Shown in pieces: positions 10,299-38,445 of a stretch of 64,000 bases of DNA. Location: the NCBI RefSeq assembly GCF_021917145.1, contig NC_061062.1, positions 2,492,247-2,556,246 on the forward strand, in the 5' to 3' direction. The DNA is from Hypomesus transpacificus (taxonomy: Eukaryota > Chordata > Actinopteri > Osmeriformes > Osmeridae). Every line of letters begins with the position of its first letter. The first letter of the stretch is position 1. The translations under genes and the position numbers were made by a program. Below the pieces are notes generated by a model, which was given only the letters and a program-made list of their open reading frames with translations, did not search any database and was not told the origin of the DNA.

Positions 10299-12665
10299 CC
10301 TCTCTCTCTCTCTTCCTCTCTCTTTCTCCTCCACAGACGACTCTGGTTCCGACAAGACCGGGCCCGGGGTGGCAGATGAACTGGAGGCGGAGTCAGGCCC
10401 AGACAGCTTGTCAGGTAAACTAGGTAAGAGCTGTCCACCATCCAGGATGCAGGAGCATCGCTGGGTTCCAGTTTAACCAAACAATATCCCTTTGAGAAGT
10501 AGCATCTAATTTTCCAGGGGATCCTAAAATATGCACAGAAAACCCCTCCAGTTTCATTCAGTGAAGCGCGGCAGTGGCAACCCACAAACCCTCTCTCCGT
10601 GTCCCTGTTTCTCGTCAGTCCGGCCCAGGTTCACCCAGCCTGCCAAGATGAGGAAGCGTGTGATCGCCCGTCCCGTGGGCAGCTCGGTGCGTCTGAAGTG
10701 CGCCGCAAGCGGGAACCCTCGTCCAGACATCGTGTGGATGAAGGAGGAGCGCCCGCTCACCGACAGAGAGGTCGGCCAAGGGCGCCAGAAGAAGTGGACC
10801 CTGAGCCTGAGGAACCTGACCCCAGAGCACAGTGGCCGCTACACCTGCAGGGTCTCTAACCGTGCCGGGGAGATTAACGCCACTTACAAAGTGGAGGTCA
10901 TACGTACGTATCCTGCAGCGAGACTCGGACTCTTCTGTAGAGGGGGAGGAGTCCGACTGAATGGGTGTAGGAGGAAAGAGGAATGAGATGTGTTGCTGTT
11001 CTTGCTTTCTGTTAGTGATCAGAGAAAAGGAAGTAGAAAAAAAGTTCAGTGCTAGAACATTTACGTACAGTACTTAGGAACTCAGTCATTAGCCATTCTG
11101 GATGGGAATTTGACCAAGGAAGAACCGTGAACTTTGAGAGATTCTTTCTCTCTGATCTACCTTCTCCACATGGCTGCGTTTGATCAGGAAGCCTCGCTCA
11201 CAGCCCTGCGCCCATGGACCAATGTGTTTGTGTAATCATGTATATGAGAAGCATATTGAGAAGGGGAGTTTGAGATGGGAGAGTTTGTGTTTGGTGGGGA
11301 GGGGGGAAAGGTGCTGCTTAACCTAGAGCCCCTCTACCCAATCTGGGGATGATTATGGTCCAGCTGTCTGCCAGAACACCAGCCCCCCCCCCCCCCCACC
11401 AACTTCTGAGACATGTGCTGCACAACCAGGGGCAGAGAGAGAGGAAACAAATCACACATACCTCTTGTGTTACATGCGATATTTCCCTCTCCCTCTCTCT
11501 CTACCAATTACGCGTCCCGATCCTGAGGGCCGGATCCAAAGAGACGTTCCTGCTTGTTCAATGTGCAGCGTCTCCGTCACGTCACTGCCACGGGACCTCT
11601 GTTGTGACAGTCGGGCTCGTTGTGTTTTTCTCCGCAGAGCGGACCAACTCCAAGCCCATCCTGACGGGCACTCACCCGGTCAACACCACGGTGGACTACG
11701 GGGGCACCACCTCCTTCCAGTGCAAGGTGAGGAGCGACGTCAAGCCCGTCATCCAGTGGCTCAAGCGGGTGGAGTCCAACGAGGAGAGCCGCTACAACTC
11801 CACCATCGAGGTGGGAGACCACCGCTTCGTGGTGCTGCCCATGGGGGAGGTGTGGTCGCGCCCCGACGGCTCCTACCTCAATAAGCTGCTGATCACCAGG
11901 GCCAAGGAGGAGGACGCGGGCATGTACATCTGCCTGGGCGCCAACACCATGGGCTACAGCTTCCGCAGTGCCTTCCTGACCGTGCTGCCTGGTAAGAGCA
12001 GTTCAGATGTGATGCTGAACCTCCTTTGATGTGACGCTAGGCTCCTATGAGGGTTTAGGTGCGGTTTTATGAGCGTACGTAAATTCCCTCGGTGACGCTG
12101 CTTGTGAGAACGGAAACACAAATCAAATTGTATTTGATCTGACCACTATCTACAACTATCGACCTACTATTTGACCACTGTCGACGATCATCATCTGTGT
12201 TGACCCTTTCTCTTCTCCTCTCGTCCTCCAGACTCCAAGCCCCCCATCACCCCAATGTTTACCCCAGCCTCCAGCACCCTCCCCTGGCCTGTCATCATCG
12301 GCATCCCTGCTGGCATGGTGTTTATCTTCGGTACGGTGCTGCTGTGGTTCTGCCAGAGCAAGAAGCACTGCTCTCCTCCCAGTGCCCCCACGGGGGCCTC
12401 TCAGAACCTGCAGGCCTCCCACCGCCTGCCCTACCGGGACCGGGACCGCACCTGCGTGGCCCCCTCCTCCACGTCCTCCAGCCCAGACAAGGACTGCATA
12501 AACTACGAGGACTACCTGACCCAGAAGCAGTTGCTCCTCACCCAGGGCGGTTCGAACCTCCCGACCAAAATCTACCCTAAGATCTACACTGACATTCACA
12601 CGCACACACACTCTCACGTGGATGGGAAAGTACACCAGCATCAACACATTCACTTTCAGTGTTAG
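1456..12665 (+). CDS. fgfrl1: Fibroblast growth factor receptor-like 1 (5' end missing)
   Basis: Single-pass FGF receptor relative with three Ig domains and no tyrosine kinase. It binds FGF ligands and heparin and acts in cell adhesion and as a decoy or modulator at the cell surface. Exons: 1456-1728 (Ig1; cysteines in LPCLVEGD and TYICKATN), 10337-10423 (acidic linker), 10619-10903 (Ig2; LKCAASG, YTCRVSN), 11638-11991 (Ig3; FQCKVRS, YICLGAN), 12232-12665 (membrane segment around [16 protein letters not shown], then a cytoplasmic tail). The tail ends with YPKIYTDIH and a His-rich stretch finishing in HFQC, the family signature. All splice phases agree and give 476 codons plus stop. The signal-peptide exon is not in the model. 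The large intron 1729-10336 carries transposons. Which fish paralogue (a or b) this is was not determined. Confidence 0.95.
2644..2791. repeat. (GGGA)n purine-rich microsatellite
   Basis: GGGA/AAGG tetranucleotide run in the fgfrl1 intron, almost all purine on the + strand. Open frames across it on either strand are low-complexity artefacts. Confidence 0.85.
5431..5615 (+). mobile_element. tRNA-derived SINE, copy 1
   Basis: The head resembles a serine/leucine-type tRNA: A-box-like TGGCTGAGCGGTTA, then B-box-like GGTTCGATTTCC. A body with TGTCCTTGGGCAAGGCACTT follows, and a 3' tail AGCGTCTGCTAAATGACTAA. The same unit recurs at about 23991, 26739, 45154, 48874, 50081 and 53910. It lies in the fgfrl1 intron. 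Confidence 0.88.
7329..8399. mobile_element. piggyBac-type MITE nested in the hAT element
   Basis: Flanked by TTAA at 7325-7328 and 8400-8403. The ends are inverted: CCCTTTACTGCC at the left and GGCAGGAAAGGG at the right. TTAA target sites with CCCT ends are typical of piggyBac. A subterminal palindrome, GGGCATTTTAATGCCC, lies near 8357-8372. No transposase frame is visible, so it is non-autonomous. Confidence 0.85.
8724..9144. mobile_element. Possible MITE bounded by a 14 bp inverted repeat
   Basis: TTATTATATGGCAA at 8724-8737 recurs as its reverse complement at 9131-9144. Another inverted pair around GGGAAATATCAAACTGA (about 8628-8645 and 8673-8690) lies just outside. No clean target duplication was seen, so it may be a structured part of the surrounding hAT element. 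Confidence 0.45.
10138..10336 (+). repeat. Polypyrimidine block with about 39 consecutive C, abutting an exon
   Basis: (TC)n, then C at 10228-10266, then (TC)n again, ending in the acceptor CTCCACAG of the fgfrl1 exon at 10337. It doubles as an extreme polypyrimidine tract. The opposing GA-rich frames are spurious. Confidence 0.9.
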
Positions 12666-13962: not shown

Positions 13963-15758
13963 CTAAGCTACATCATTTAAAGTTGAATTTGCAACTGTTT
14001 GATTAAAAGAAAGAAAAAATGAATACCTTAGTTTATATATTTTTTTTATCGACTCAACAACAATCCTTTTTTTACTTCTGGGATGTACCATGTTTGTCAT
14101 TTTAATAGGTTAGTTATCCTGTGGTTATCCTGTGGTTATCCTGTGGGCTGCACAGCCTCCAGACTGATGCAGGCGTTAATGCCTCTCCAACAGCCAGATG
14201 AGCCCAGCGGTGCAGCGGTGGTGAGACAGGGCCAGTGCAGGGCCCTGATGCTGCTGGGATGAATGCCTGAACAGACACAGGGAACAACCTCAGGACAGAG
14301 CACTCTCACAGTCCCTTAGATGAGTGATGGGCCCTGCAAGACTACACCAAAAGACTAGCATCTTTCCCCTTTTAAGAAAGTGAATCAATCCCCTTCCACC
14401 GCCCCCCCCCCCTCTACTCTACCACCTCATTCAGCTCCAATCTAAGTGGGATAACCTTTCAGCGTTTTAGGAAGTGCATTGTCCTTCCCTGGGAGGGATG
14501 TGACAGGGCCCTGTGATTGCTCTGGAAAGAAGGGATGCATTGTATTGGAGCAGCAGGGTTGCAGCCTTCGCAGGACAGTGGAGCTCCCAGACTCCAGACA
14601 ATAACAGTTATTGAAGAACTGAAATGTTTTCAATCAAACTTGACTAATGCAACTGCTTAGATGACGCATATAAACCTGCAAATTAATTTGTGCTATGACA
14701 ATCAAATATAGATTGGTCATGCATGACCCTCTAAAGACATACACAAAATACCTTACATGGATTGAGATTTGTGATTATATTGTAGTTAACACTGCCACCT
14801 TGTGGATTGTGAAAGGACATCAGCTTGACTAGAACCTGATACTAATAATCCTCACAATTACAGCATACATGCATTTTGTAAACTAATTGTTCATGTTTTG
14901 TAATACTACTAAAAATCTAGAAAAGATTTATCAGGGTCCCTGCAGGTTTGAGTAAGTCAAATTTAAGATCATAAAGATTGAAATTGAAGACCTACACGAC
15001 ACATTACCCCAAAAATATTCAAATCAAAGAAATTTTAAAATGTTCTTTCAATGAATGACATCATTAATTTAATTTACAGATTAAGCACATTAGTAACCTA
15101 ATTTAATTTCATTCATCACTCAGTACTAGGGGTGGGGGGGGGGGAATACCCTTTGGTGTAGTGGGTTGAGAACAAGGGCCTACACCACAACAACATGGGT
15201 TCAAATCCAGCACAGAGTGTAGTGCCAAACACATCCGTGGCCTCAGATCCCTGTAACTGCAGCGCACTCCACGACTGACCAGATCCCTGTAACTGCAGCG
15301 CACTCCACGACTGACCAGATCCCCTCTCCCAACTGTCCTTTCAGGTACCAAACTGTCCCAACACGAAAGGCTCAACCAAAAAAGGTAAAGAAATTGACCC
15401 TATCAGTTTTATTTAAGTCCAAGAGCAAAAATTGAGTTGTAAGAAGATCCGTCAGCCAGATTTGACCCCCCCCCCGGTAATTTGAACCCTGGACTCCAGA
15501 GCTCCGCTTTGTAGACTACGACCCAATGCGGCCAGCGTTTCTGGAATTGAACGAGGGTAAAACCTTTTTTTAGACCTGACGAAATTAAATTTAAGACCTC
15601 GGACAAATCTGTCCATTTAATATGTTTTAAGCCCTTAAATTTAAAGTTCAGAATGAAACAGTGAAACTTCTTTTCTACACCCTTCTCACATGAGTGAAGG
15701 CAGGATCAATTATGAACAGGACAAAATACACTGCACATGACAAGCTGACAGTGAAAGT
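13963..15758. other. Intergenic gap between convergent fgfrl1 and tacc3
   Basis: No gene was seen. It contains an 11 bp unit, GGTTATCCTGT, repeated three times near 14110-14145, AT-rich sequence with AAATTTAAGA motifs near 14950-15650 that may be a decayed DNA transposon, and the SINE-like segment at 15148. Confidence 0.6.
15148..15330 (+). mobile_element. tRNA-like SINE fragment with internal 36 bp duplication
   Basis: Begins with an A-box-like TGGTGTAGTGGGTTGAGAAC and a B-box-like GGTTCAAATCC, so it is tRNA-derived but a different family from the copy at 5431. A unit starting AGATCCCTGTAACTGCAGCG occurs twice in tandem at about 15245-15320. Confidence 0.6.
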
Positions 15759-15764
15759 TTTATT
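15759..15764 (-). promoter_or_regulatory. tacc3: tacc3 poly(A) signal
   Basis: AATAAA on the minus strand, about 220 bp beyond the tacc3 stop codon. Confidence 0.6.
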
Positions 15765-15986
15765 AATTACTATATAACAGTATGGATCAGAAGATGAGGA
15801 AAACATCAGACAACAAACATGGATTTAGAGGCAAGAGCAAATCAAATACTGGCACCGCTTGATCTCCCAAAGCAGCTACTATTTATTTACAAGGCCCTAT
15901 TCTGACAATGTTCTGGAGGAAAACAGCCTCTTAACTACAGTACACATATAAGGACAGGAACAAACATGGACACGTACAGAATAAAA

Positions 15987-18900
15987 TCAGCCTTTCTGGA
16001 CTTTAGCGATCAACTCGTCACAAAGGTTGGTCAGTTCCTCGACCTCTTTCACCTTGAGGGGAGGAGAGACAACATAGGATTAGAAAACACCCTTGAAACA
16101 TTTAGCCTAAACCTTCAAGCCTCGGTCAAAATCACAACATACATCCTACAAGATTGGTTATTTTTGACGATTCCGTACAGTACACGATGGACTGAATACT
16201 AAATCACCAACTTACTTTCTGGTCCAGGTTCTTGTCCAGCGACTGCACCTTCAGCTGCTCCCTGCGCAGCTGTGCTTTCAGAGCAGAGGACTCCGACTTC
16301 AGCTTGGAGCGAACCTCAGCGATCTCTCCATTGGCCCTGCAGACAGAGCCTCTCACAGTGAGTCACATGGTACATCATGACAACACAGCGATGACCCGGA
16401 TACGGGGCGTGTGTGGACGCTGGGCTAGCTCCACTCACAGGCTGATCTTCTCCTCTGCGTGGGCCTTCAGCGCCTGGTAGCGCTGCTCTCCCTTCTTGAT
16501 CTCAGCCAGGTAGTCCTGAGCACACTTCTTTAGGACCTCCTCGTTCTAGGCAGGAGGGGGAGATCAAATGACTGTTTAGTGGGTTCATGAGACAGTGCGT
16601 GGGACCCAAATTCAACAGGTGCAATGTCAGCAAGTGTCTAACATAAATTGGCATAAAAATAAAATAAAAACAATACCAGCCAAGCTGATCTTGCCAAACA
16701 ACCCTCAACATAATATACCAACAAGTACATTGTCCGTTCGAAACTGACCTTTTTATAACCCCCAATAGCATCCTTGTGTTTGTCCAGTCTCTTGCACAGG
16801 TCGGAGAGGGACCTCTCCATGGCGTTCAGATCCGCAGCGATCTGCTCCTTCTCCTGCAGAACCTTGCAGAGCGCAGACTGGGCCATGTCCTTCTCCTTCT
16901 GATGCTCCGCTGCAGCAAGAGGAACAAACCGAGCCTCGCATTCAAAACCTAACCAAACCTTAACACAAAACACTTCCTCCTTTCACTTAATGTTAAGAAA
17001 AAAAAAACACATACCCATCATCTGAACGATCGTGCTTTCATACCCGGAGAGAATGTTCCTGAGGGAGTAAAGAAAGACAGTTAATAAACACCTAGAACGA
17101 AAAGCAAGGTGACTGAAGCGACTGTGCGCTGGCTCGACGGTCTACCTCAGCTCTTGGTTATCCAGAGACAGCTCGTCATACTTGGCCGTCCACTGCTTCT
17201 CCTTCTCCTGTTCCCGTGCCTCGACCCTGGCGATGGCATCGTCCATGTCCTTCTGACTGTACTTCAGCACCTCAATGATGGCACCCTCGCTGGTGGGCTG
17301 GGAGAAGGCCGGGGCCAGACCCTCCAGCAGGGGAGCGGTCTGCACCACAACAACACCAATCAAGGACAAGAAGAATGGGGGGGGGGGGGGGGAATTGATG
17401 TACATACTTCATTACTGTGACCCCCCCCCACACACACAAAAGGTCATATTAAATGAGTTAAAACTTAAATAATCAACGACAGAGTTTACTTACTTGTGCT
17501 GGAATGCCTAAAGTGAAGTCATCCATTTTCTGTCCGCTCATGCTTTCCTTGGCTCCGGAACGGTTTGCCTCCATACTAAAACAACCACAGAACTTCTCAA
17601 TCAATTCGTACCAAAGCTGGACAAATAAGTCCCGTAGTTTCAGTCAGTCCAGTACAGAAACAGTCAACAGAAGGTAGTTGTGAAACCCACCGTGAGGCGA
17701 AGGCAGCAGGGCGTGGGAGGTTGTCCAACCCTGGAACGCCACCAGCCTTCTTGGGGCTCTCTCTCAGCAGAGGGTCAAACTTCAGGTACAACGACTGTTT
17801 CCTCAGTGCAGACTCCTTGAACTAGAAAAAATCAAGAAGAGAGTTGGTGGATATAGACTTATAATACATAAAATTCACAACTCATAGAAAAAAAATGAAT
17901 ATACACTCACAGTGGTAGACCCAAACTGCTCCAGGTAGTCCATCTGACCGTCAAAATCATTCGACATAACTAGGGAGAAGGGAGGCCTAAGTTAAAGTCA
18001 ACTGAAAAGCCTAACGTAAGAACATGTTGGTTTAGTTCTCTTTACACATTTAACTTACACATTGCTCCGGGAACAAAGTCCTCCATGGGTTCCATGCCAT
18101 TTTGTGGAGGCTGTTCAGAAAGGGCACATTCTGGAGTGCTGAGCACAGGCTGGGCTGGTTCCTCGGTGGATTCCTGATCGTTCAGAGGGCCAGCCAGTGG
18201 CTGCTGAGACTGGGCAATGTCATTCGCTCCCAGGAAGCCAGTAGCATCATCTGATCGCTCATGTGTCTGGGTCATGTGATCAGGGTCCTGGTGGATGTGT
18301 CCAATGGCAAGAGTAGACACATCTGTTACAGGGATTCCAAACTCCCTTTCCTTCTTCGGGTTAGTTTCCAAGTGAATGACAGTTGCTGGGCTGTCATCTC
18401 CCCCACAAGAAACACCACTGGAAATGGATAGACAATGAAAAGACAGGTTCACCCTTCAAAGCATATCCAATAGTTATTCACAGATTATTTCATGTTTCTA
18501 CAAAAAAACAAAACAAGGCACAACATAAAATTGTCCATAACATTGTTAGTTTGTTAAATATTGAAACGTACATAACATTTTAGTTTGTTAAATATTGAAA
18601 TATGAAAATGTACATAACATCTTAGTTTGTTAAATATTGAAATATGAAAACGTACATTGGGAGTGATGAAGTATTTTGCTTGACAGACTCATCAGAAGCA
18701 ACCTCCTCAACTAGAGAGGGGGGCTTGCCCTGTGGACTGGACATGACACCCAGAGGACTGGACACCACACCACACTTAGGAGAGTCAGTCATTCTAGCAT
18801 TTGAACCAAAGGGATTATAGTTGGGGTCATCCAACTTGTCAAAGTCAAAGGCGTAAGAGCCCTTGGGAACTGCAACTTCAGCATCATCTGCTTGCTTTAC

Positions 18901-20684
18901 TGGGGGACTCTGAGATGGGACAGAATCCTTCTTTTCAGATACTGGCTTCTTTGCTGTTGCCTTCATGCCTGCTGGTCTTTTGCCAAACTTTTTAGGAGGA
19001 GGCTTGTGTTTTACTGCTCCATCATCAAAATTGAACTCTAGTTTGACTGCACCTTCTTTGGGAGGAAGCATGGATTCAGCAGGTGGCTCGCTGGAAGTAG
19101 GGGACATTGCAGCAATGGGCTTCATTTCTGGAAGGACAGGGGTCTCTACGATTGGCTGAGACACAGTCAAGACCTCAGCTTCCATTTCCTGCTTCTCTGG
19201 AAGGACAGGGGTCTCTACGATTGGCTGAGAAACCGTCAAGACCTCAGCTTCCATTTCCTGCTTCTCTGGAAGGACAGGGGTCTCTACGATTGGCTGAGAA
19301 ACCGTCAGGACCTCATCTTCCATTTCCTGCTTCTCTGGAAGGACAGGGGTCTCTACAATTGGCTGAGATACCGTCAAGACCTCAGCTTCCATTCCACCAC
19401 CCACCTCCAACTCCTGGCGTTCCACTGCAGCAGGTGGATCTTCACATGTTAGCTTCCTGCCAAGCTCCGGAGAATTCTGAATTTTGGCGCCTCCCATTTG
19501 GAAAGGGTTGACTGAATCTAGGTCATCAAAATTGAAATTGTAAGAACCCTTGGTGGGCAGGGGAGCATCCTCGAAGGCAGAGGAGCGGGATAACGCCTCG
19601 TCTTGATCGAGGCAGTCGAACGACACGGCCGGTGGCTCCTCCTCGCTGTTTGATACGTCTTGAAACTCGAATGCAGAACTCTTAGCCATCACGATCACGC
19701 TGCTGTCTGTGGAGTTGACGTCGCCGGACATGTCAGCGATGGAGTTCTCCACTGACGGCAGGAACGGGAGGGTCTCATCGAGTGCTGTGACAAACTCTTC
19801 TGATCTCTCCTCAGGTGTGAATGAATCACCAGAGGCCAGTTCATTCTGTACTTCAAGCATGGGTTCCTCGACTGATTCCCAAGGCCTTGGAGGAGAGGGG
19901 ATCATTTGAGCAGCTCCTTGGAAGGGGTTCATGGCGTCGAGGTTGTCAAAATCCAGCTGATAACCGCCTTTGCTCTGGATGGGCATGTCCTCATTAGGAA
20001 AAGGCAACGAGTCTGTAAAATCTGGTGTGAGAAAGTGACATGAATATTACTAATACTTAAATTGGATAAACTGCTAATATTAAAACGAGTAACATCAAAT
20101 GTAAATAGGGTTGGGATAATGTAATATCCGTCACCTGATTGTGGTCCATCCAATGTCCCAGTGCTTTCCTGAGTCCTGTAACAAATAAATATATATAATA
20201 AGAGGACGGTTTAGTTGCAGACTGTATATATTCTAATGATGGATTGCACGTTCTAAATCAAATGAAAAAGAAAGTGTACTAACTGTAAAGTGGTTGACAA
20301 CTGCAACGCCTCAAGTGCTTTGGTACACTCATCCAGACTTGCCATTTTCAGGGATTTGGTGGGAGAAACTATTCTCTTTGTGACAGGATCTCTTCTCGGG
20401 GTCTGAAAACAAACCTAAAAAGCCACAACATCGATGGGTCAGTATTCGATTAACAAATCAAGTACTTGTTGCACTGCAAATCTGCTCAAACTGAACCTGA
20501 AATGTACCTTTATTCCCTTCGCCACTGATTTGTTGGGGAGATTCTCTGCCTGAGACTGACGAAGAATAGAGGGTCTCCCTGTCGGTTGATCCAGTGAAAA
20601 GATATCGAAACTTGAATCGCTTTCGCTGTGCTTTCTTTCTGGGCAGACCCCACGATTCTCATCGTTCACAGGAACTGAACTCAT
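15987..20684 (-). CDS. tacc3: Transforming acidic coiled-coil protein 3
   Basis: Spindle protein that, with clathrin and ch-TOG, crosslinks kinetochore fibres and is targeted by Aurora A. Coding exons, 5' to 3': 20684-20508, 20402-20284, 20175-20135, 20021-18656, 18417-18059, 17969-17911, 17821-17691, 17575-17494, 17339-17146, 17058-17015, 16909-16749, 16545-16439, 16336-16216, 16052-15987. Phases agree and total 3027 nt (1008 aa; human TACC3 is 838). The 1366 nt exon has three SDP-type repeats ([44 protein letters not shown]) and a 23-residue tandem repeat. MDYLEQFG and [15 protein letters not shown] match the clathrin-binding/Aurora A region, with Ser in RKQSL. The last seven or so exons form the coiled-coil TACC domain ending [14 protein letters not shown]. 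Exon 18417-18059 contains an antisense copy of kif15 exon 9. Confidence 0.96.
18230..18371 (+). other. Captured copy of kif15 exon 9 inside a tacc3 coding exon
   Basis: Aligns without gaps to 24206-24347 (constant offset 5976 bp), 131 of 142 bases identical by hand count. The copy includes the CCAG acceptor end and the GTTAGTGTCCAA-like donor side of the kif15 exon, so it was copied as DNA and not from spliced RNA. It lies on the same strand as kif15, and tacc3 reads the opposite strand. About 47 TACC3 residues ([14 protein letters not shown] through DDATGFL) come from it. Each TACC3 codon is the reverse complement of a KIF15 codon position. Confidence 0.93.
18536..18656. repeat. Three tandem 35-42 bp units in a tacc3 intron, reaching the splice donor
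   Basis: Units start with CATAACAT at 18536, 18571 and 18613 and share TTAGTTTGTTAAATATTGAA. The donor of the large tacc3 exon (GTACGT on the minus strand) lies in the last unit, and related copies of the donor-like TACGT/TACAT sequence lie in the others. Confidence 0.8.
19127..19396 (-). repeat. tacc3: 69 bp coding minisatellite in tacc3, four copies
   Basis: GAAGGACAGG starts each unit on the + strand at 19131, 19200, 19269 and 19338, exactly 69 bp apart. It encodes a 23-residue repeat around [19 protein letters not shown]. The copies are nearly identical, so the expansion is recent. Confidence 0.92.
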
Positions 20685-21680
20685 TCTGTATTGAGACACA
20701 AACAAAGTTACTGGGCATTATCTAACCACAACCAGAATTCCGTCTAAACAGCTGCACCGTCTGATAGGGGTTTGCATGTGAAACGTCAGGAATGGGATAC
20801 GCCCCATGGCATTCACATCACATGACACAAACTGAGCAGTGAATGAATCGCTGTATTCAAAATCTCTCTTCATAAGCTCTCTTCATAAGCTACTTGTGCA
20901 CTTTAGAACCTACCAATAGCTGTAAACAGCACCAACCAGCCTGGGTGTAATACTTAGAGGAAGGAGTGCGATAGTGGTAAAAACTATCATTCTCATGCCA
21001 ACAAAGAAAGCTACTCAACTTGTCACGCACGACATCAATATCGAATTGGTTGATACCTTACCAGTGTAGGGCAAGTTATCGTTGTAATATTGAATGCTTA
21101 ACTCTTTCTTGATGGCATGACCAGGATAGAGGTGTCAAACTGAAATACTCAAGTAGCTGTTATTTACCCACTGTCCTCACTCCTCACACCAATAGTATTG
21201 TGGACTGTCGTTCCATTTCCCTACACACACTGCCCGGATCGATCCGTGTCCTGCCAATGTGAACACACCCAATCTGCAACGCTCCGTATTGCTTTACAAT
21301 TTGATATCAATGACATATTACTTTAACCGATGTTTATATATTAGCTTAGAGCTCGTTTGCAAATAAGACAACACAAAGCGTCTGCTAATACCATAGCAAA
21401 ACGTTGGTTTGTAACCTGTTAGCCAAGCTGCTATTGTAGCTTTAGCTAGTTAGTGAGCTACAGTATTGGAGCTAGCTAGCCTAGCTAGCTAAACCAGCTA
21501 GCTCTTGTCAGTTTGCTCGTCTGTCTAGCTCTACATTATTAGCTAGCTAAACCAGCTGTCTTGCAGGCAAGCAAGGAAAATCATAAAACATAAGCAAACA
21601 CATAACATAACTGCATAAGCAACGTAGTAAAGCAAGTTTCATGTCCTTAAAAGACCTACCTCAAATAAACAGTCACTTAC

Positions 21681-22170
21681 GTGTTAGCTCTCGCAAGTAA
21701 CGGACTCCACACGGAAAATACTTTTTCGAACACTGCTCGACCTTTTGGTGATTTGTCGCGATTTCGAATTTAAACTCCTCACTTTGGACCAATGATAGGG
21801 CAGCACTTTCGAGCAACTCCGGATGCAACAACCAATAGCGTTGCATAGCAAATATTAAAAAACGGATGTTGTTCTTGATGTTATCAAGAGAGGGCGCGCT
21901 ACAACCATTTGCCACTCGGTGGTCAACTCTAAGACACTGGGGGCGCTAAAGTTTTCAAACCCCGGCGGAAACTACGAGCGAGCCTCCGACAGTAGCACCA
22001 GAGAAAGACGGGCTCCAGTTATAATAACTCTATGGCTCTAGTAGCACAGAACGTAGTTACCCGCCAATTTCGAAGATGTAAACAGGACTTCTGTTGATTT
22101 GTAAACCAGATAACTACCTTGCCATAAGAAGCCGTTAATTACCACCTTAGCCTTACCATAAGGAGCCAAT
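21681..22170. promoter_or_regulatory. Bidirectional tacc3/kif15 promoter region
   Basis: A tacc3 non-coding first exon ends with a donor at 21680/21681 (minus strand, ACAC then GTAAGTG). The kif15 ATG is at 22171. Between them are CCAAT boxes at 21789-21793, 21832-21836, 22064-22068 and 22166-22170. TTCGAA occurs at 21725-21730, 21763-21768 and 22069-22074, and TTTAAA at 21769-21774. CCAAT (NF-Y) plus CHR motifs (TTTGAA and variants such as TTCGAA or TTTAAA) is the known arrangement of G2/M cell-cycle promoters. Transcription starts are inferred, not seen. Confidence 0.65.
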
Positions 22171-25100
22171 ATGAATACAACGAAGAATAAAGGTAGTGAA
22201 GTTTCATCTTGATGGCTAATATTATAACATGCTCTGATCCTGTTACTTGCTACTAGTAATGCGCTAGTAGTGATAGGCTAGCCATAACTTGCTAACCATG
22301 GGTATCAAGCAGGATAAATTACCCCTTGACACCGGTTTAACGTAGTTGGCCTGCTATAACTGGAATAATGTAAGTAACTGTAACAATATATTTTCTTCAA
22401 CAGATGCTGGGGATTCATCGCAGCTTGCTGCCAGGTAAAAGTGGTTCCGCTATTTTGTAGCTCTGAAGCACTACTAGCTCTAGTTTTAACTTGGTGGGGA
22501 AGTCTTAATATCTAAAAGTTGAAATACCATTAATTACAGAGAAAGGTTCTTACGTTAGATACTAGGTTTGCTACATTCCACGTTCAATTGATTTGACAGT
22601 TTTCGGTACTGACTGATGATAATACTTTCCTGCAGTGGTGACAGTGATTCCATCAAAGTGTTTGTGCGGGTGCGACCTATGACGCAGGGCAGTGGCCTAA
22701 CAACAGATGGAGATCACGGTCTCTGTCTCACTGTCACCTCACACAACACAATCCGATTGCACTCCAAGCCAGAACCACGCAACTTCACCTATGATCATGT
22801 TGCAGATATGGACACGAGCCAGGTGGGTGATGGACCTGACTTGATACCATGTACTGCACAGGATCCTAACTAACCATGACTAGCGATACTCAAACAGTAT
22901 TTTTAATGTTGTGCTTTCCCCATACAACAGGAGGCTGTGTTCTCCAGTGTAGCGAAAAACATAGTTGAGTCTTGTATAAATGGATACAATGGGACCATAT
23001 TTGCTTAGTGAGTATATTTTTTTCTATGGCTTTAAAATTTATGAATGGATTACTGTGGCTAGATAAAGCATTGTGCAAACTATTTAAACTCTTGTTTATC
23101 TCTTAACAGTGGACAAACGGGTTCTGGTAAAACCTTTACCATGCTGGGTAAGAAGACAAAACGACTTCCCTATTTTAGATAATTAAGTAAGTAACTAATT
23201 ATTCACATCAATTCCACTGAGAACCTTGACCAGAGTGTTCTGCCCAGGGCCGTCTGATTCTGACAACTTCACTGACGACCTGCGAGGGGTTATACCCCGG
23301 AGTTTTGAGTACCTGTTTTTTCTCATCAACAGAGAAGTGGAAAAGGTGAGCTAATACTGACACAAAAAAAGCATATAAGATTGTAATAATTTTTCAGTTT
23401 GATCGATGCCTGGATTTAAACTAGACGTTATTTTTTATTAGTCTGGGAATACCAAGAGCTTCCTGTGCAAGTGCTCCTTCATTGAAATCTACAACGAACA
23501 GATCTACGACCTCCTGGATAGTGCCTCAGCCAGCCTCTTCCTGAGGGAGAACATAAAGAAGGGGGTATTTGTTGAGGGGTCTGTTGAAAAGTTTGTCACA
23601 TCTGCAGCAGAGGCATACCAGGTAGATATGCATCAACATCGTCTACTTGCTTTCCAACTGGTTACATCAAGGCAAATCCGCACCTGCCATGCAAAAACAG
23701 GTGGATATCGAAACATCAGCGTTCCATCGATGGCTCCCTTTCAGGTGCTGTCCATGGGCTGGAGGAATCGCAGGGTGGCCTCCACCTCCATGAACAGAGA
23801 GTCTTCGCGGTCGCACGCCGTGTTCACCATGACCTTAGAGTCCAAGGAGACTGCCAACGAGGTGTTCAACATCAGAACCTCCCAGCTGAACCTGGTGGAC
23901 CTGGCAGGCTCTGAGAGGCAGAGAGACACCCACACAGAGGGTTCCAGACTCAAGGTAACCCAGAGCTTCCCAGTGTTCCTTGTTGTAGTTGTCAGGTGGC
24001 TGAGCGGTTAGGGAATCGGGATAGTAATCAGAAGGTTGCCAGTTCGATTCCCGGCCGTGGAAAATGAAGTAGTGTCCTTGGGCATGCACTTCCCCCATAA
24101 TTAGCTCGGGGGGAATGTCCCTGTACTTACTGGGACGTTAAATGACTAAATGTAATGTAACGTTGCTCTCGGAAGTTAATTGTGACTCTCAAAACTTCTC
24201 CTTCTCCAGGAAGCCAGTAGCATCAACCGATCTCTCATGTGTCTGGGTCAGGTGATCATGGCACTGGTGGATGTGTCCAATGGCAAGAGCAGACACATCT
24301 GTTACAGGGATTCCAAACTCACGTTCCTTCTTCGGGTTAGTGTCCAATCAGAAAATAGATTTTGCAGACTCTACTGGATGACTTGTTTTCTGTATTCCAT
24401 ACGTGCATTTACATCGTGTTTACTTATCTAGGACTCACTCGGAGGGAATGCTAAGACATATATTATAGCCAATGTGCACCCTGGCTCCAAGTGTTTTGGA
24501 GAGACACTGTCCACCTTACACTTTGCCCAGAGAGCCAAACTGATCAAGAACAAGGTATGTGCTAAAAAAACGGATTCTGTCTAAATGTTTTTCATCACTA
24601 AGTGTATATACGACATGGGTATATAACATGACTGATCCTTTATCTTCAGCTGAACTTTCCTCATGTAGTATTCTACATCCCTTTAGATAGAACCATCTGC
24701 TAAGCGACTAAAACGTCAGTATTGCCACTGCACACAGCGGTGTCCCCACGATCGTTTTTGAACGGAGTTGTGTGATTTGCGATTGTTTCAGGCCATGATT
24801 AACGAGGACACGCAGGGGAACGTGAGGCAGCTCCAGGCTGAGGTGAAGAAGCTGAAGGAGCTGCTGGTCCTGGCTGGGTCTGGGCTCCCACACACGGGGG
24901 AGGATGTGAGAGATGGGGCACCCGGAGGACCCCAGCCACCCGCAGGTAGGAATCCACGTAAAGGACCATGGCGGGGCCCCACGTCTGGCTGAAGACGTCT
25001 GATGATCATGGGCTAAATGCTTCATGTGTTCTCTCTAGATCCCTCCATAGAAGGCCCACCTGAGGTCTCCTACAAAACGCAGTTTTTAGATGCTGTGCGT

Positions 25101-28100
25101 TTGTGGAAGAGGCGTGAAGATGACAAGAGGGTAGGACTTTGTATTTTGCAATGCGACAAAAAACAGCTTGAAAAGAATCATTTCATGAGAATGTGTAAAT
25201 CGATGAGAGTTGTGGTGATTTTTCCCCGCATGTAGATGCTGCTCCAGAAAGTAGCTCAGTTGGAAGAGGCCTGGACCCACAAGGAGAAGTTCATCCACTC
25301 CAACCGTATGATCCTCAAGTTCAGGGAGGACCACATCTCCAGACTGGAGAAGAACTTCAAGGGGGGCCTGGGCCTCCTGTCTGACCAGCAGAGTCAAGCT
25401 CTTGTCCACCAGCTCAAGGAGGAGATCAAGATCCTTAAGCAACAGGTACAGTTGGATAAGCACCCCTAACATGTAGGCCGAGGCCTGGATTTGAATCTGG
25501 CCTGATCCTTTGCTGCATGTCTCTCTCTCTCTCCCTCCCTCCCCCTCCCCTCTCTCTCTCTGTCTCTCTCTCCCCCTCCCCCTCTCTCTCTCTCTCCCTG
25601 CCTTTTCCCTGCCATATTAATGTATACAAAAAATAAATATATGTTTAATGACAATACTTTGATTTATATACAGTGATAGATTTGACTAATCCCTCTCTCC
25701 TCTTTCAGATTGAGCATCACCCACGCATTACCAAATACATGGCAGAGAACTACAGCCTTCGTGAGGAGAACTGCCAGCTCCGCTCCTCAGAGTCAGTCAG
25801 GAGGGCCGAGGAAGTCGACAGCCAAGCCGCTGCCGAGCTGGAGAAGGCCTTCCAGAAAGTTCTGGAGGCGGAAGGGTCTGCTGGGGGTAAGCATGGGCAG
25901 GTGGCACCACTTCTGAAATAGTCTAAAGCTTGTTATTGACCACAACCGGGATTGCCAGCAAAACAATAAAGAGGAATGCATTCGTCCACAGCACAACCAG
26001 CCGGCTGTACTCCGGCAACGGCTGAAAACCTTTCTGCCGTCTCTGTGGAGAGGCTGAAGGCCCAGCTGCTGCAGAAGCAGACAGAGCTCACTGCTACTGT
26101 TCAGGCCTTTGAGGAGCACAAGGAGGTCACCAAGTAAGTGGGACTGAGTGGCTGATGAGGTTAGGCTAGTCTATGGTAGGCTAGTCTATGCTAGTCTAGG
26201 CTGTAGATCTACATTGTTGTGGTCTTTGGAGTTATAATCATTGCATCTGGTGTTCCAGGAAGCAGATGTTGGAGTTGGAATCGGAGAAGAGGTACCTGGA
26301 CAAGTCGAACAAGCATCTGGAGAACATTTTGGAGGCCACTAAAGCTCATAAGAAATTGGAGGTTTCTCAGCTGAACAAAATCCACGCGGAAACCATAAAG
26401 GTGATAAAACCCCCCCCCCCCCCCCATATCTATTACTTTTTTTCCAGCGAAGTTGCGCCATTGCACTTCCAAGTTTCTCACCCCCCATACTATTCCAAAC
26501 TTACCTCACCACCGAATGGTTCCACAGATCCTCACCACCCCTACGAAGTCGTACAACCTGCGGACCCGGCTGGTGCCGCTGTCCAGCCCTGACCACCTGA
26601 GCGGGGGGGTGGAGGACCTGGACGGCATCCTCAGTGAGCAGCCTCCTCCCCAGATGGAGGACGTCTGCGAGGCTCTGACCGAGGAGCTGCAGCAGGTTCA
26701 GGTACGAAGCGGCGTTCCCAGAGGAACTTCACCCTTTTACATGTAGTCATTTAGCAGACGCTCTTATCCAGAGCGACTTACAGTGAGTACAGGGACATTC
26801 CCCCCCCCCCCCCGAGGTAAGTAGGGTGAAGTGCCTTTCCCAAGAACACAACGTCATTTTGCACAACTGGGAATCAAACCGGCAACCTTCTGATTACCTA
26901 ACCGCTCAGCCACCTGACTCACCTGACACACACACCTGGACGAACATCTAGCAGTTCCGTTGGTGACTTCCCCCCTCCGTGTCTTCCTCAGGACCAAGCC
27001 AGTCGTATTCAGTCCCAGCTGGACGATGAAGAACTGCAGAACCGGAAGCTTCTGCAGCAGATCACCAAGCTGCAGGAGCAGGTGGCCCTGATGTCGGAGG
27101 ACTCCGCCCGCCAGCAGGAGGTGAGGCGTCCGCTCTGGTGTGAGACGAGGAGCGCGGGGGCGGGAAAGGCCGTTCTGACGCGAGGCTCTGTGGATGTGTT
27201 TGTGCTCTCCAGCTCCTGTCGTCTGACCGGGCCTCCTGGGGGAAGGAGAGAGACAGCCTGCAGGAGAGCGTCAGTCGCCTGGAGAAGAGCCTGCAGGAGG
27301 AGAGGCAGGCTGGGGAGGGTAGGTCAACCTGGGCTATTCTTCACATACTCTGGACAGTGCAGGAACGCATATACTGTAAAACTGAATGTGGTAATGCAAT
27401 TGACACACACACACACAGTTAAGTGTACAAATAAAAAATATGTTTAAAATCAAGCTAAAATACCTAAGCGAATAATAAAGACTGAACAAACATTTTTTTA
27501 AACTTTGTACTTTAACACTGCCGCTCAAAAATAGAAGACCCCAAAAATATACATTTTGTGTGTTGAATAAAGTATAAAGCGTTGACCTGTTTGCTCAGTG
27601 TTGAGCAGTGAGGTGCAGGACCTGCGTCTGGTGCTGCAGTCGTCTGACAGGGAGCTGGCAGCCGCCAAGAAGGAGCTGAAAGCCGGCCGCAGCGAGCAGG
27701 AGAGGGAGGCTGTTCAGTTTTCCAGCAGCCTGATCAGCACACAGCTACAGCTCGATAAATTCACGTATGTCTGCTCTGAAATATCCTCTACTGCATGGAA
27801 GGGAGTGTGAGAGAGTGTGAGAGAGAGAGTGTGTGTGAGAATGTGTGCGTATGTGTATGTGCTTTTGTCTTTGAGCTACAGACAACATTGACAACCCGGG
27901 CTATGTCTGTCCCTCATCAGTATCTCCCCAGCTTTGTCCTCATGTGGCTCTGTCCTAACCCGTCCCTCCACCCCAGGCTGGAGAGAGAGCAGCTCCTGGA
28001 GCAGCAGAGGTCTCTGCAGGACGCCCTGGACCAGCTGCAGGCGGAGGCCAAGTTTGATGTCGACCAGCTCTGGCAGCATCTGGAGGAGAAGCAGCAGGAG

Positions 28101-31100
28101 ATAGCCACGCAGCAGGCCCAGATCACAGTCAGTCGGCCCTCCTTCTTCACCCGACACCAGCCCCTGCCACCGGAGGGACGTGTGTGGGGTGTCTCTTGTG
28201 GTTTAGTTGTCGTGACGTGGGGCTTTTGCCGTGTTCTGATGTGCTGTGTGTCTTAGGGGCTGGTGGACGCGCTGCAGGCTGAGAAGGAGCTCACCGGATC
28301 TCTGACCTTCAAGTTGAAGGAGGACAAGGAATGCACTTCCAAGTCAGTTTTCAAAAGTAGTTTAGGAATTCTTCAAGTACCATCTTAATGAATGACTTGA
28401 TGTATTTTTTTTTTAATGAAAAGCGGATGAATTCTTCTTAAATGTTAATGGATATGGGTGATGTTTTCTTCCCCAGAGAGCTTGTGCTGGTATTGGAGCA
28501 GAATTCAGGCCTAAGGAAGCAAGTCTCTGAGCTGATGGCACAGAACCAGCAACAGGTATGATATGTGTGGAGTTGATGTAAATGTTCTATCCTTTGTAGT
28601 TCTTTAACATAAATGCAGTAATACACCCAGGTGCTATTTCAGTTAAAAAAACATTTATCCGTTCAAAACTTTCTCCAACCTTTCTCCAGACTGTAAACAT
28701 TGCAAGTCTTGAGCAAAATCTCACCACAGCCAACGGAACAATCACAAGCTTGGATCAAAAAGTCGAACAAGACAAAGTAAGTCTCCTTATGACACCTGCA
28801 GTCAATTCTGTCTGGATTCACTAGACATGATCTCATCTCCTCTCTGTTTGACAGGGCTTTGTCCTGGACCTGATCAACCAGACCAGAGACCTCCGCAGTG
28901 AGTTGGGCCAGAAGGAGGAGAACTTGGCCCTTCTCTCTGGGGACATCAAAGACATCACGGTGCTGACTCATCTGAAATATCATCATCACAAACCTTGCTC
29001 CCCTCTGATTGGTTGACTAGGCTTGTTACTTCTTATTTGGGCTGTGCTAAGTGGTTGCGTGACATGGTCCTGTCGCAGGATGTTCCATAACGGGATGTCA
29101 TTGTGACGCTGTGTGTTCAGGTCAAGTACAGTGCGGCGTGCTGTGAGAGGGAGGAGATCAGAGAGCACAGCTCCAGGATGGAGGCGGAGCTCCTGGATGT
29201 GAGGGAGGCTGCGGAGAGGAGGGTGGCGTCCAATCAGATCGAGGTAAGGGTCATCCTAAACACACTCTTTCCGGGGTAATCAGATTCAAGATTCAGATTC
29301 AAGATTCAGATTCAAGATTCAGATTCAAGATTCAAAATCAAGCGTTTGAAGCTTTTTGATGCGTTCAACCTACACTCCCACACATTGAACCCCTGCTCCC
29401 ACATCCGTGTTTAACACACCCAGACAAATGTTTCTTGTGCTCCGTTGTGGATGTGGTCCCTGATGATGGTGTTTTTGTGGAGCCCAGCTGGAGGTGCTGC
29501 AGGAGGAGGTGACCTACGCCACGGAGGAGGTGGAGAGACTCACTAAAGTTTTGGACGAGCAGACCGGTCTCCTCCAGGCCTCTCAGGAGCAGGCAGCCCA
29601 GAACGAGACTACCATCCAGACCCTGCAGGACAAGGTGCCATGCAAAGAAAGAAACTATTCATTCGTTTTAATGCTGCGTCTGAACACTGCCTGGAACAGC
29701 TTTGCAGAACCTTCTCAGTTATCAATTCTCACTGATGAGTTTTCCTCCTCTGCTTTGTCACCAGTTGAAACAGCAGGCAGACTTGGTCGAACGAACCATC
29801 AGAAGTGATGACAACGACAACCCTCTGTCCTCAGTCACTCCTAAACAACTACCACAGGTGACTGGACACCTGCATGGCTTCTTCACACCTGACTGTGTTC
29901 ATTCAGCAGACGCCTTTCACAAAGCTACATCCAGGAAGGGGCTGGGGGGATTTGAACCTTTGACCTCTTGATCTGAAGTATAGTATACCCATGAACGTAT
30001 CGCCAGGGAGACGTTATTCAGAATGATGTGAGTGATGCGGTCTGCTTGTCTCCCAGATGCCGGCTACGCCCCACAGCTTCAGGCTGGCTACGCCCCACAG
30101 CTTCAGCACAGACCTGTCACAGCTGCTGGAGAGCCAGGAGAGGGAGCTGGAGAGCCGATGCTCCTCCATGATGACGATGGAGGTGTTGCTGTCCGAACTC
30201 AACGCTGAGAGGACCGCCAAGAACGAGGAGATCCTGAGGCTTAAGGTGTGTGTGTGTGTTAGGGATGCTCATTTTGGAGATATGTTTTTTTTTTTTTTAC
30301 CTGAGATAATATGGAGATGTCTGCTCTTTTCTAGCAAGTTACAGAGGGGACACACAGTATATCAGGTGAAAAAACGGCCTGATATAATGTATCTCCTTTG
30401 TAACTTTTGCTAGAAAAGAGCAGAGATCTCCATATTAGCTCAGGTTGTTCATTGTGACCAAAAGAACACAGAAAAGAACACACAGGATGGCAGGACAGAC
30501 CTGCCAGATCAGTCAGCCTATGTAACTCAGGTCCGTGGCAATATGGAACTTTGGAAAACACTGTTGATTTATCTGCAATACTAAACGACGCATTAAACAA
30601 TTCACACACGTCGCCTTAACGTAACAGACAAACGTATTTATGTTGATAAATGAGTCCCTTGTTACTATGGAAAACCCTGTTGAGTCTTCCACGTCGCTAT
30701 TTGTTCCTTTTAAGAGGTGAATTCGAAGAGCAGGAGCGCATCTCCGCTTCTGAGTGCATGCGCTCTCCCGAGGCCAGGGGATACATCTCCTGGCGGGGGT
30801 GAGTGCCTTGGCACGACACCGGCACGATGCCACCCAGTATGTGACTTTAGATAGCGTGCCGGCGTTCTGGAAACAGGCAATGTCAGTGTCTAGTGTGGGT
30901 ATTCCCGCCTTAACACCTCTCCCTTTTAAACAGATGTCGATTCCACTCTGACTACCTCCACTGCCGTCTTATTTCCGGTATAACAATGAACCCCCATTTC
31001 ATGTTAGTCCCTTTTATACAGACCTGCGAAGCGCAATAAGCCACAACATTCCTGCCTCAAACGGGCTGTGTAACAAGGGCTTAAGTCTGCATGTTTGATG

Positions 31101-32604
31101 TAAAACTTTATGACATCTCAGTTGTGTGTTTTAATCCTCCCCCCAGGCCCAGCTGAACAAAGACATGGAGAGAAACAAGACACATGGTCTTTTAGACCAG
31201 TTGTGCACCAAACAGAACCAGACAAACGGAAACACAAATGGGTAAAAGTTGATTCATTATCACATGAATTAATGCAAACCAGAGGCCTATACTGAGAAAC
31301 AGGATTTGGGGTTAGCGAGGTGACTTCAGGGGTACTCCTGGGTTTTCAGTTTCACGACGGTGGCTCACTTCTTAGATTTCCCTGGAACGTTTTTGGCTTG
31401 TAAATTACGGCAACTTATATTCATTTTAATGTATATTTGATATTCTATTCCACTTAGTATTGCTAGTTTATGTACCTTTAGTATAGTTAGACCACATATT
31501 TAAATTTAAGATTCCTATATGTTTATTGTATGCACCTTCCTGCCAAAGCAAATTCCTTGTCTGTGCAAACTTTCATGACGAATAAATCCCATTCTGATTC
31601 TGATTGACGAGTGGTCTGTCTTGCACCTGAAGTCCCGTCATTTTAATCGAGAGAAAGATCTTTGCACACCCAGTACATTAGGATTGAATGAAACTCTGTT
31701 TAATCAAGGGGAAAGTTGTGAATGAATCTTAACTAGGTATCCTTTGATCCCTAGTGCGGTTTTGAACGAAGCCATTCAGCAGTCCATGCTTAAAGAACTG
31801 CAGGAGGAGCGGGTAGAAAAGGTTGGTCCGTCTACTAACAAAAATACAAATGTCTCAGAGAATATTCACATATATTATTATTATTATTTTAAATAATAAA
31901 TTGAAAACAAAAACGTACTTGCGTCTTTACGAATAAGGGTCTGCTTTCGTTTCCGTGCAGAGTACAATACTTCAGCGATTCACTGAGACACAGGAGAGGT
32001 AAGACTGAACCCAGTTCCACACTTTCACCCTTCCTCATGCCGTCATGCTACTTATGTCGTAGATGAACTAATTGCGGGTGATGCCGTTTTAGACTACAGC
32101 TCCAGGAGTCCATGTTGGCCCAGTCCCAGACCTGTGTCCAGGAACTGACCCATGAACTGAGGAACCGCTGCCTAGAGGTCAGGGAGCTATCCCTGAGGAA
32201 TCAGGACCAGGAGAGACTGATCCAGGTGAGAACGGGGTCAGGCTCGGGGGTTTGGTTACGAAGCGAGGCTCTGATGAATGCGGCTCACTGACACGTGCTG
32301 TCGCTGACTCAACAGGAAGTGGAAGTTCTTCGGAAGCAGGTGGATCACCTGTCGGAGGAGAACGGCAAACTGGTGGGCCATAAGAACCACAAGCAGAGGA
32401 TCGAATACTTGGTGAAGCTGAAAAAGGAGAACACCAAACTCCAGGAGGTAAAGAGTCTGTTTGTCTCTGATCTATCCATCACTTTCGGAGACTTCTACCT
32501 CTCCAGAGGTAGACATTTTGAAACAATCAAGAGACTCATAGTAACCTACTTTTTTATTTTATTTTCCTTTTAAGGAAAATGAAAAGCTCAGGACAGAGAA
32601 ATGA
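22171..32604 (+). CDS. kif15: Kinesin family member 15 (kinesin-12)
   Basis: Plus-end spindle motor that helps maintain bipolarity. Exons: 22171-22192, 22404-22434, 22636-22822, 22931-23007, 23110-23147, 23248-23345, 23442-23621, 23745-23954, 24210-24335, 24432-24554, 24792-24945, 25039-25130, 25236-25445, 25709-25886, 25992-26133, 26259-26400, 26528-26701, 26992-27120, 27213-27318, 27599-27764, 27977-28127, 28257-28342, 28477-28555, 28690-28776, 28855-28959, 29121-29243, 29488-29634, 29765-29857, 30057-30245, 31147-31241, 31755-31821, 31961-31998, 32093-32225, 32316-32447, 32575-32604. Total 4140 nt, 1379 aa (human 1388). The motor domain has [11 protein letters not shown] (P-loop), NRESSRSH (switch I) and DLAGSER (switch II). 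A long coiled coil follows, with [11 protein letters not shown] near the end. Exon 9 is the source of the tacc3 insertion. Confidence 0.96.
23991..24160 (+). mobile_element. tRNA-derived SINE, copy 2
   Basis: Same family as 5431-5615 (GTCAGGTGGCTGAGCGGTTA head, AAATGACTAAATGTAA tail). It lies in the kif15 intron between exons 8 and 9, 50 bp before exon 9. It was not carried along in the tacc3 copy. Confidence 0.88.
26739..26919 (-). mobile_element. tRNA-derived SINE, copy 3 (inverted)
   Basis: Reverse-orientation copy of the same family in the kif15 intron between exons 17 and 18. The tail is at 26739 and the tRNA-like head ends near 26919. Confidence 0.87.
29281..29336. repeat. 13 bp tandem repeat (ATTCAGATTCAAG)
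   Basis: About four copies in a kif15 intron. Confidence 0.85.
29900..29972 (-). mobile_element. SINE fragment
   Basis: CAGCAGACGCCTTT, then GGGGATTTGAACC (inverted B-box-like), in a kif15 intron. It is a truncated copy of a different tRNA-type SINE. Confidence 0.5.
30298..30449. mobile_element. Fold-back (hairpin) element in kif15 intron
   Basis: Two arms of about 70 bp are inverted copies of each other. The left arm starts ACCTGAGATAATATGGAGAT. The right arm ends ATCTCCATATTAGCTCAGGT. Identity is roughly 85% by eye, with TATATCAGG/CCTGATATA at the centre. No target duplication was found. A related outer sequence may extend toward 30540. Confidence 0.65.
31395..31612 (+). mobile_element. 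LINE-like 3' end, copy A
   Basis: Ends CTGCCAAAGCAAATTCCTTG, a GACGAATAAA motif, then (TTCTGA)n. A diverged copy lies at 34984-35193. A short 3' repeat after an AATAAA-like tail is typical of fish non-LTR retrotransposon ends. No coding part is present. Confidence 0.6.
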
Positions 32605-33270
32605 CCCTTATTCGGGGCTGTGCTTGAAGTCCCGTCCTCCACAAAGGATGCTCATATACAAGGACTGCTTTGGTCAATACCTTTACATGGAGTGAAACCT
32701 GAAATTGTAAGCATTTGCTTTCAAAAAGAAAAAGAAAAGGTATGATTTTTTGTTTTGTGTATGGTCTCTGAGGCAGGGCCACTCATTTGGAACAGCTTGA
32801 CAGTTTACCTCAGCAGAATGCTGTGATAAGTGGTCATCCACTGTAGAAACTGTAATTAACTTAGGCATTTGTCATGTGTTTTGCATCATACACCTTTGGT
32901 ACACATACTTTGTGTTGTTTTAAATGTTTCAACTGTCTTTATTGAGAAATTATCATCCAAATTATCTTGATATTAATTTCGGTCTAAATGACACTCACCA
33001 CAAATGTAACTTTTTATAATGGATGAAATGCAAAAAGGGTTACTCTCTTTCTTGTAGACTTGTTGCATAATCTTTTTTTTGTTATTTCATGTCTGATTCT
33101 CTTATGTCTGTGTGATTATCTAATAACATCCTTTTTGTGTTGAGCAGAAATCTTTCAAGTCTATAACTCTTCTCATTTCCTATACATTGCTCATGTACAT
33201 AAAACATACTTTATTGAACTGTTCTAGCCTATGCTGTCTGTCTATGTTTAACAATTTTATTACAAATAAA
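32605..33270 (+). other. kif15: kif15 3' UTR and poly(A) signal
   Basis: The sequence after the stop is AT-rich. AATAAA at 33265-33270 is the best poly(A) signal. Confidence 0.65.
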
Positions 33271-33453
33271 AACGTAATATTTTAGTTGCTTATGTATTTT
33301 ATCAGAGCACAAGATAGTTTGGCCATGCCCACATTGAAACCTCAGGGAAACTTCCAGCAGGTATATCACGTGCACACGTTATTAGCTGACATACAATTGG
33401 CTATCTGATTGAGGATCCTACACGAGCGTTGGATTATCGGGAAGACTTGGAAG
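33271..33453 (+). promoter_or_regulatory. tdrd9: Probable tdrd9 promoter squeezed between kif15 and tdrd9
   Basis: Only about 180 bp separate the kif15 poly(A) signal from the tdrd9 ATG. An E-box CACGTG lies at 33367-33372. A MYB-type core, TAACGG, lies just inside exon 1 at 33497-33502. Many piRNA genes are A-MYB targets in other vertebrates, but binding here is inference only. Confidence 0.4.
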
Positions 33454-37071: not shown

Positions 37072-38252
37072 GCTCCCAGCTCTGACAGTGTGTCTGTCTG
37101 CTGAGCTGATAAAGTCCTCCTCTCGCCTGGAGAGAGACAGACACGACTGGGGCTGCTTTCTCTGCCACGCTGCCCCAGGCCTGGATGGGCCGGCCAGGGA
37201 GAGAGGGCAGAGGAAAGAGGAAAGGAGGGAGGGATGAGAGACTTGGGAGGAACATTTAATTTGTTAAAGAGAAAGAAGCGGGTGAGTTGTTTTCAGAACG
37301 GATTCAGTGAGAGCGATTTTCAGTCCAGTCACTCTTGACAAAAGTAAACTCAGTGGCCTTACAGAGGACTGTGTTTTTGCTGGATGTTTTTTCAGGAATA
37401 CTTATTCATGGTGACAAAGCTAGTGTGAGAAATCCACCCTCCGTGCCCAGTACGACTGCTCGCTGAGGAAAAACACGGTTTTCTGCCTTGATTACTGTCT
37501 CACTAAACGGTGCTCCTATCAGCTGCCCTGGAGATAGCTTAATGACCACATTCATGCAAAAAGACGACATATGAGTGGGGGGAACCTTCTCCTTTAAAAA
37601 TGCATCCGTACACAGATACATTTGTACACAGGTCACAGGCCTTAATCATGCCTGTTCATAAAGTTAAGCATGTCAAAGGAGAACATGAACAAAACACGTT
37701 TTATCCCAGAAGCCAATTTGTGTGTCTCGCTGGCATGCCCTGTTGGAATGTGTTTTGCTGCTACGCCCGTTTTCCTCCAGCCCTGCAAAGGACCCCCAGG
37801 ATCAGGACAGCCCCAGGAAACAGGACTCCCGAGGCGGACCGACGAGCAAAGCAGCAAACGCACACGTCTCTGGTGGTGAGTTCACCGTTCCTGCACTTGT
37901 GAACGTGGTCGTCACCAGGAGAATGTGTTCTCTTAACAACACAGACGAATGTGAGCTTCTCTCTACATGTCTCTGTGTTACATATCCTAATCCGTCTGCA
38001 GATGGACCGGCATTGACCAGTTATGAGTACCCTAACTTGCCTGTTACTAAGAACCGACAGGAGGTAAAAGCCCTCTATGCAAACACAAACACACACACAC
38101 AAACACACACACACAAACACAAACACACACACAAACACACACACACACAAACACACACACACAAACACACACACAAACACACACAAACACAAACACACAC
38201 ACAAACACACACACAAACACACACACACAAACACACACACAAACACACACAA

Positions 38253-38283
<31 letters not shown>

Positions 38284-38398: not shown

Positions 38399-38445
<47 letters not shown>

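Follow-up and report, generated by a model that had tools for sequence, protein, structure and literature searches.

An in-frame antisense copy of a kif15 motor-domain exon inside a coding exon of the neighbouring tacc3 gene in smelts

In a 64,000-nucleotide stretch of the Hypomesus transpacificus genome (contig NC_061062.1; hereafter the window), a coding exon of tacc3 holds a copy of a motor-domain exon of the adjacent kif15 gene, which tacc3 reads antisense and in frame. We regard it as a real, old capture of a neighbour's exon and as a variant of templated insertion and exon capture. Very probably, the copy began as a break-repair patch taken from kif15 before Hypomesus and Osmerus split and has persisted as a tolerated lengthening of a linker in TACC3. 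The features concerned are listed in Table 1.

Table 1. Features of the tacc3/kif15 neighbourhood, in window coordinates.
Feature	Position	Strand	Remarks
tacc3 coding region	15987..20684	-	14 exons, 3039 nt, 1012 aa; start codon at 20684
tacc3 coding exon holding the copy	18059..18417	-	fifth of 14, 359 bp; copy wholly inside
Inverted repeat, left arm (GCAA-TGTCATTC)	18214..18225	.	near insertion edge, weak statistics
Copied segment within tacc3, antisense to kif15	18230..18371	-	47 residues: P0001 565-611 = 588-634 of the window model
Inverted repeat, right arm	18374..18386	.	near insertion edge, weak statistics
kif15 coding region, mapped part	22403..32601	+	mapped by exact peptide matches; covers residues 8-1379 of P0121 apart from split codons
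kif15 source segment	24206..24347	+	126-bp exon flanked by 4 bp of upstream and 12 bp of downstream intron
kif15 motor-domain exon	24210..24335	+	126 bp, 42 codons, residues 282-323 of P0121

The copy (18230-18371) aligns to the source (24206-24347) over 142 bp without gaps, on the same strand and at an offset of 5976 bp, with 131/142 positions identical; of the 11 sites that differ, 10 fall within the kif15 exon. BLAST scored the pair at E 4e-53 in a self-comparison of 15001-33500 and at E 3e-52 against the whole genome, values on which chance similarity was rejected. The only stronger matches in the self-comparison were among the tandem-repeat copies at 19127-19393, and a whole-genome search of the 437-Mb assembly returned just two matches to the 142-bp segment, namely the copy itself and the kif15 exon. 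Beyond both ends of the copy, the sequence is unrelated to kif15 at equal offset, as judged by ungapped comparison. The kif15 intron bases carried along match at 4/4 positions upstream (CCAG) and at 11/12 downstream. Realignment thus reproduced exactly the coordinates, strand, offset, length and identity given by an earlier, sequence-only reading of this DNA, together with its statement that the copy includes the acceptor CCAG and 12 donor-side intron bases. No match was found in plasmid records, and no tRNA gene was found.

In the database, the recipient gene model was matched best by Hypomesus transpacificus TACC3 isoform X2 (P0001), with 100% identity over the scored region; the window model is identical to it bar one additional 23-residue repeat. 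The 14 exons sum to 3039 nt, which is divisible by three, and their one stop is terminal. The exon holding the copy, 18417-18059, is bounded by a TTCCAG acceptor and a GTAAGT donor, both outside the copy; it is entered in phase 2 and the following exon in phase 1, such that it splices in phase on both sides. This model agrees with the earlier proposal that the copy lies wholly within an in-phase exon of a gene whose coding length is divisible by three. P0001 carries the TACC C-terminal domain (PF05010, E 3.2e-72) and, at residues 661-703, the Aurora-A-binding region (PF25777, E 2e-17). Separately, the large tacc3 exon contains tandem 69-bp (23-residue) repeats at 19127-19393, with three units in P0001, one more in the window and four in the Osmerus protein P0002; unrelated tandem repeats occur elsewhere in the same half of TACC3 in Esox, Umbra and Dallia.

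The donor protein, P0121, matches the kinesin motor domain (PF00225, E 1.7e-110) over residues 29-361, a span that includes the source exon, and its four best solved relatives are all KIF15. The source exon is unbroken at its own locus, and its residues are identical across the KIF15 records of Hypomesus, Osmerus, Coregonus suidteri and two of Salmo trutta. The two genes lie head to head, with about 1.7 kb between the tacc3 start codon (20684) and the first mapped kif15 base (22403, residue 8). In Hypomesus, the TACC3 and KIF15 records belong to contigs of one size (15,692,960), as does the Osmerus pair (19,145,434). Where both genes have numbered names, the numbers are consecutive in three of four species (Coregonus suidteri, Perca fluviatilis and Channa striata) and non-consecutive in Siganus canaliculatus, yet the contigs there are of equal listed size; tacc3 and kif15 therefore appear to have long been adjacent. 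A dispersed repeat of SINE-like size occupies 23973-24160, upstream of the source exon at a distance of 50 bp and outside the copy, and similar pieces occur at 5413, 26808, 45194, 48874, 50124 and 53910. Elsewhere in the window, self-BLAST revealed long tandem arrays at 38080-39097, 46818-47164 and 47430-48013, and the open frames at 10528-12665 encode immunoglobulin-like sequence that presumably resembles fgfrl1.

Within the copy, the codons of tacc3 and kif15 share their boundaries: later substitutions aside, every tacc3 codon reverse-complements one of KIF15. The earlier claim that TACC3 gains about 47 residues from reverse-complemented motor-domain codons is borne out by this shared register, the residues being P0001 565-611. 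The source segment has just two stop-free frames among its six: the KIF15 sense frame and the in-register antisense frame, the latter open in kif15 over 24192-24347 and ending at the copy's end. The first in-register antisense stop in kif15, at 24348-24350, directly follows the copied stretch. Openness in this register is no lucky accident and is common in kif15: of 1359 KIF15 codons checked, 19 would yield an antisense stop, and among the 26 kif15 exons with 30 or more codons, 15 are free of such stops. The hydropathies of the sense and antisense peptides are anti-correlated (r = -0.67), as is expected anyway from in-register antisense reading.

The direction of copying emerges from protein conservation. 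Read in the kif15 frame, the copy would carry N6I, R7stop, Q14H, M17R, A18V and T38P. Among the best 120 of 7997 KIF15 proteins found, N6, Q14, M17, A18 and T38 are invariant (120/120) and R7 is present in 117/120. Since the residues altered in the copy are near-invariant across KIF15 proteins, tacc3 is, as judged from these sequences, the recipient and kif15 the source. The same comparison was made for the best 120 of 2070 TACC3 proteins found, a set with several isoforms or paralogues per species in which the smelt-like members are those of Hypomesus and Osmerus only. The insert matches 2/120, from Hypomesus and Osmerus eperlanus, and the other 118 gave no significant match to it; a third alignment, to P0085, was dismissed as chance at E 2.0. 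A region search that allowed E values as high as 10 gave 18 candidates and, among them, again these two smelt proteins. The reverse direction, from an ancestral segment in tacc3 to kif15, is next to impossible: we found nothing in its favour, the exon is present and near-invariant in all 120 of the KIF15 set, and the segment goes without a significant match in 118/120 of the TACC3 set. The identification of kif15 as source, which had first been argued from kinesin conservation, thus stands on both protein sets, and the suggested check of TACC3 in related fishes placed the insert in Osmerus eperlanus and in none of the other 118 of the best 120.

Between Hypomesus and Osmerus, the insert is identical at 40/47 residues in a gap-free alignment, with the frame kept. 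Two changes away from the kif15 antisense sequence, A20T and V41D, are common to both genera, and hence the residues point to a single insertion before the Hypomesus-Osmerus split. This split is dated to 24.1 (21.4-26.9) Mya in the accessible part of one study (PMC12083275), and on that date the insertion would be at least about 24 million years old; the separation from salmonids and pikes provides a loose older limit. A misjoin of kif15 into tacc3, by assembly or annotation, would be suggested by nothing beyond the short length of the segment and is extremely improbable, as copy and source differ at 11/142 sites, the 14-exon tacc3 frame is intact and the insert recurs, differently diverged, in a second genus. 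That last observation also upholds the earlier view of an old event rather than an assembly artefact.

We approximated the empty site by removing the insert together with 0-19 residues on each side from both smelt proteins (400 trial removals) and scoring the products against 12 TACC3 relatives from salmonids, Esox, Umbra, Dallia, Myripristis, Centroberyx and Polymixia. In both species, the best of the 400 removals took out 48 residues, that is, the insert and one upstream residue, and raised the mean score from 206.2 to 234.2 in Hypomesus and from 230.0 to 259.3 in Osmerus. Differences among the top scores were small: bare removal of the 47 residues ranked 6 and 3 of 400, and removal of the 47 plus 0-3 upstream residues gave the best or near-best fit to the 12 relatives. 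These protein comparisons fit a clean gain of about 48 codons, or about 144 nt, equal to the 142 bp plus 2; because 142 is not a multiple of three, bases would have been gained or lost at the target.

The edges of the copy bear on how it arrived. No shared word of 5 or more bases abuts both edges, no run of five A or T lies within 30 bp of them, and AATAAA is absent from the copy on either strand. The inverted repeat near the edges has 12 paired bases and one bulge (P 0.0096 and 0.0106 against random sites, post hoc; P 0.0015, likewise post hoc, with arms anchored no more than 3 bp from the edges) and offers a weak hint of a foldback. A gapped direct repeat, CTGGGC(AA)TGTCAT, occurs at 18210-18223 and 18386-18397, with 12 matching bases and a 2-base gap (P 0.039, post hoc). 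An inverted or a direct repeat as strong was found at 4.9% of random sites and both together at 0.03%, again post hoc. With its 12 matching bases on both sides of the copy, the direct repeat could be taken for a target-site duplication around a retroposed piece; we consider this very improbable indeed, since the repeat does not abut the copy (it stands 6 and 14 bp away), is matched at random sites with the P value given above, and implies a protein-level empty site that ranks 60/400 in both species, and since there is no poly(A) run or signal and intron bases were kept. A LINE-mediated retrocopy was likewise rejected on the 4 and 12 bp of retained intron and the missing poly(A) tail.

Because intron bases are present on both sides, mature kif15 mRNA was not the template. 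Reverse transcription of unspliced kif15 RNA, with the product filling a break in tacc3 as an RNA-templated class 2 insertion, is compatible with those intron bases but unlikely: in its favour, in human cells, according to the portion of PMC5110952 available, class 2 templated insertions have been attributed to reverse-transcribed RNA patches, and their templates include intronic sequence. Donor and target nevertheless lie 6 kb apart in cis, a distance that template switching on DNA explains directly, even if pre-mRNA is still compatible with it. A templated patch at a break fits because of the intron bases, the shared orientation, the 6-kb distance and the lack of a poly(A) run or signal. Of the local DNA-level copy proposed earlier, the local copying from kif15 held up in our analysis; as to the repair process itself, we infer break repair or template switching. 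At breaks, short foldback inversions as well as distant templated insertions occur, according to the excerpted part of PMC11724301.

On the break-repair reading, a break or stalled fork would have arisen inside the tacc3 exon in an ancestor of Hypomesus and Osmerus and would have been filled with a short stretch of sequence from kif15, some 6 kb distant. This patch took in the whole 126-bp motor-domain exon along with 4 bp of the intron before it and 12 bp of the intron after it. It kept its genomic orientation and, as the two genes lie head to head, tacc3 reads the antisense strand of the exon, with codon boundaries unchanged. No stop lay in this register, and the net length change preserved the tacc3 frame. 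The linker N-terminal to the Aurora-A-binding region of TACC3 would thereby have grown by 47 residues, and the insert has since diverged about as fast as the remainder of its exon, probably as a tolerated linker lengthening.

As for the consequence for TACC3, the insert ends about 50 residues ahead of the Aurora-A-binding match. The predicted structure has pLDDT 27-29 over residues 561-620 and below 50 in the surrounding stretch, and the insert and its exon are probably disordered according to this model. The model's mean pLDDT is 46.9, from an alignment of 15 rows, just two of which include the insert, and the low values over the insert may reflect this shallow alignment. Translation of the 47 residues would follow from the public protein models, which may be gene predictions in both species. 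Between the two smelts, TACC3 is identical at 40/47 residues in the insert, 61/72 in the rest of the exon and 916/982 over the protein, consistent with an insert that evolves like its host exon. Coding constraint in the substitution pattern of the copy, the subject of another earlier suggestion, was not significant: under simulation, the 11 changes were compatible with neutral evolution in the frame of tacc3 (joint P 0.10-0.21). A selected protein function of the 47 residues, such as a binding site near the Aurora-A region, might be read from the preserved frame and the lack of a gap between two genera; it is unlikely in view of that substitution pattern, of an identity similar to that of the rest of the exon and of the low structure-model confidence over the insert.

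Selection could also have acted on RNA, with tacc3 and kif15 mRNAs pairing over 126 nt and so coupling two spindle genes. The predicted duplex, at -218.4 kcal/mol, has 116/126 complementary positions and longest runs of 30 and 26 pairs with wobble allowed. Such complementarity is, however, an automatic by-product of copying, and the copy has drifted from its source at 10 exonic sites; we hold selection for pairing to be very improbable. The broader idea of a functional antisense module, in which the antisense peptide, the 126-nt mRNA complementarity or both couple TACC3 and KIF15 in smelts and are kept by selection, we likewise hold to be very improbable. Relative to these readings, we favour the tolerated linker lengthening that followed break repair.

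The smelt locus provides a dated example whose donor and recipient genes both survive intact: the antisense strand of a highly conserved exon turned into coding sequence of another gene, and the captured segment has kept the reading frame for no less than some 24 million years on the date in the accessible part of PMC12083275. By this route, new coding sequence arises without either simple duplication of a gene or an origin in non-coding DNA. The capture also yields a directly testable in-register pair of sense and antisense proteins and a pair of mRNAs with long complementarity. Among the titles and opening lines of abstracts that the literature searches listed, drawn from a collection with few subscription journals, we found no report of the smelt case or of antisense exon capture from a neighbouring gene.

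In classical exon shuffling, the sense reading is kept and the exon is kept as a unit with its own splice sites; the smelt kif15 exon is instead embedded within a tacc3 exon, antisense, and the splice sites of tacc3 lie outside it. Exon shuffling and the rearrangement-derived exons of Drosophila yakuba (PMC6776367, in the part available) are alike in that a piece of one gene becomes coding elsewhere. Class 2 templated insertions, as portrayed in the same portion of PMC5110952, share with the smelt copy a short copied sequence, an intact donor, the lack of poly(A) and a presumed break; they are polymorphic in humans and come from distant loci, whereas the smelt copy is present in two genera, derives from an adjacent gene and, unlike them, sits inside a coding exon and is read in the recipient's frame. 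Insertions at yeast breaks, in the excerpt of PMC11724301, are likewise short templated patches at whose edge inverted repeats can form; those breaks were induced, whereas the smelt copy records an old germline event with a weakly supported inverted repeat.
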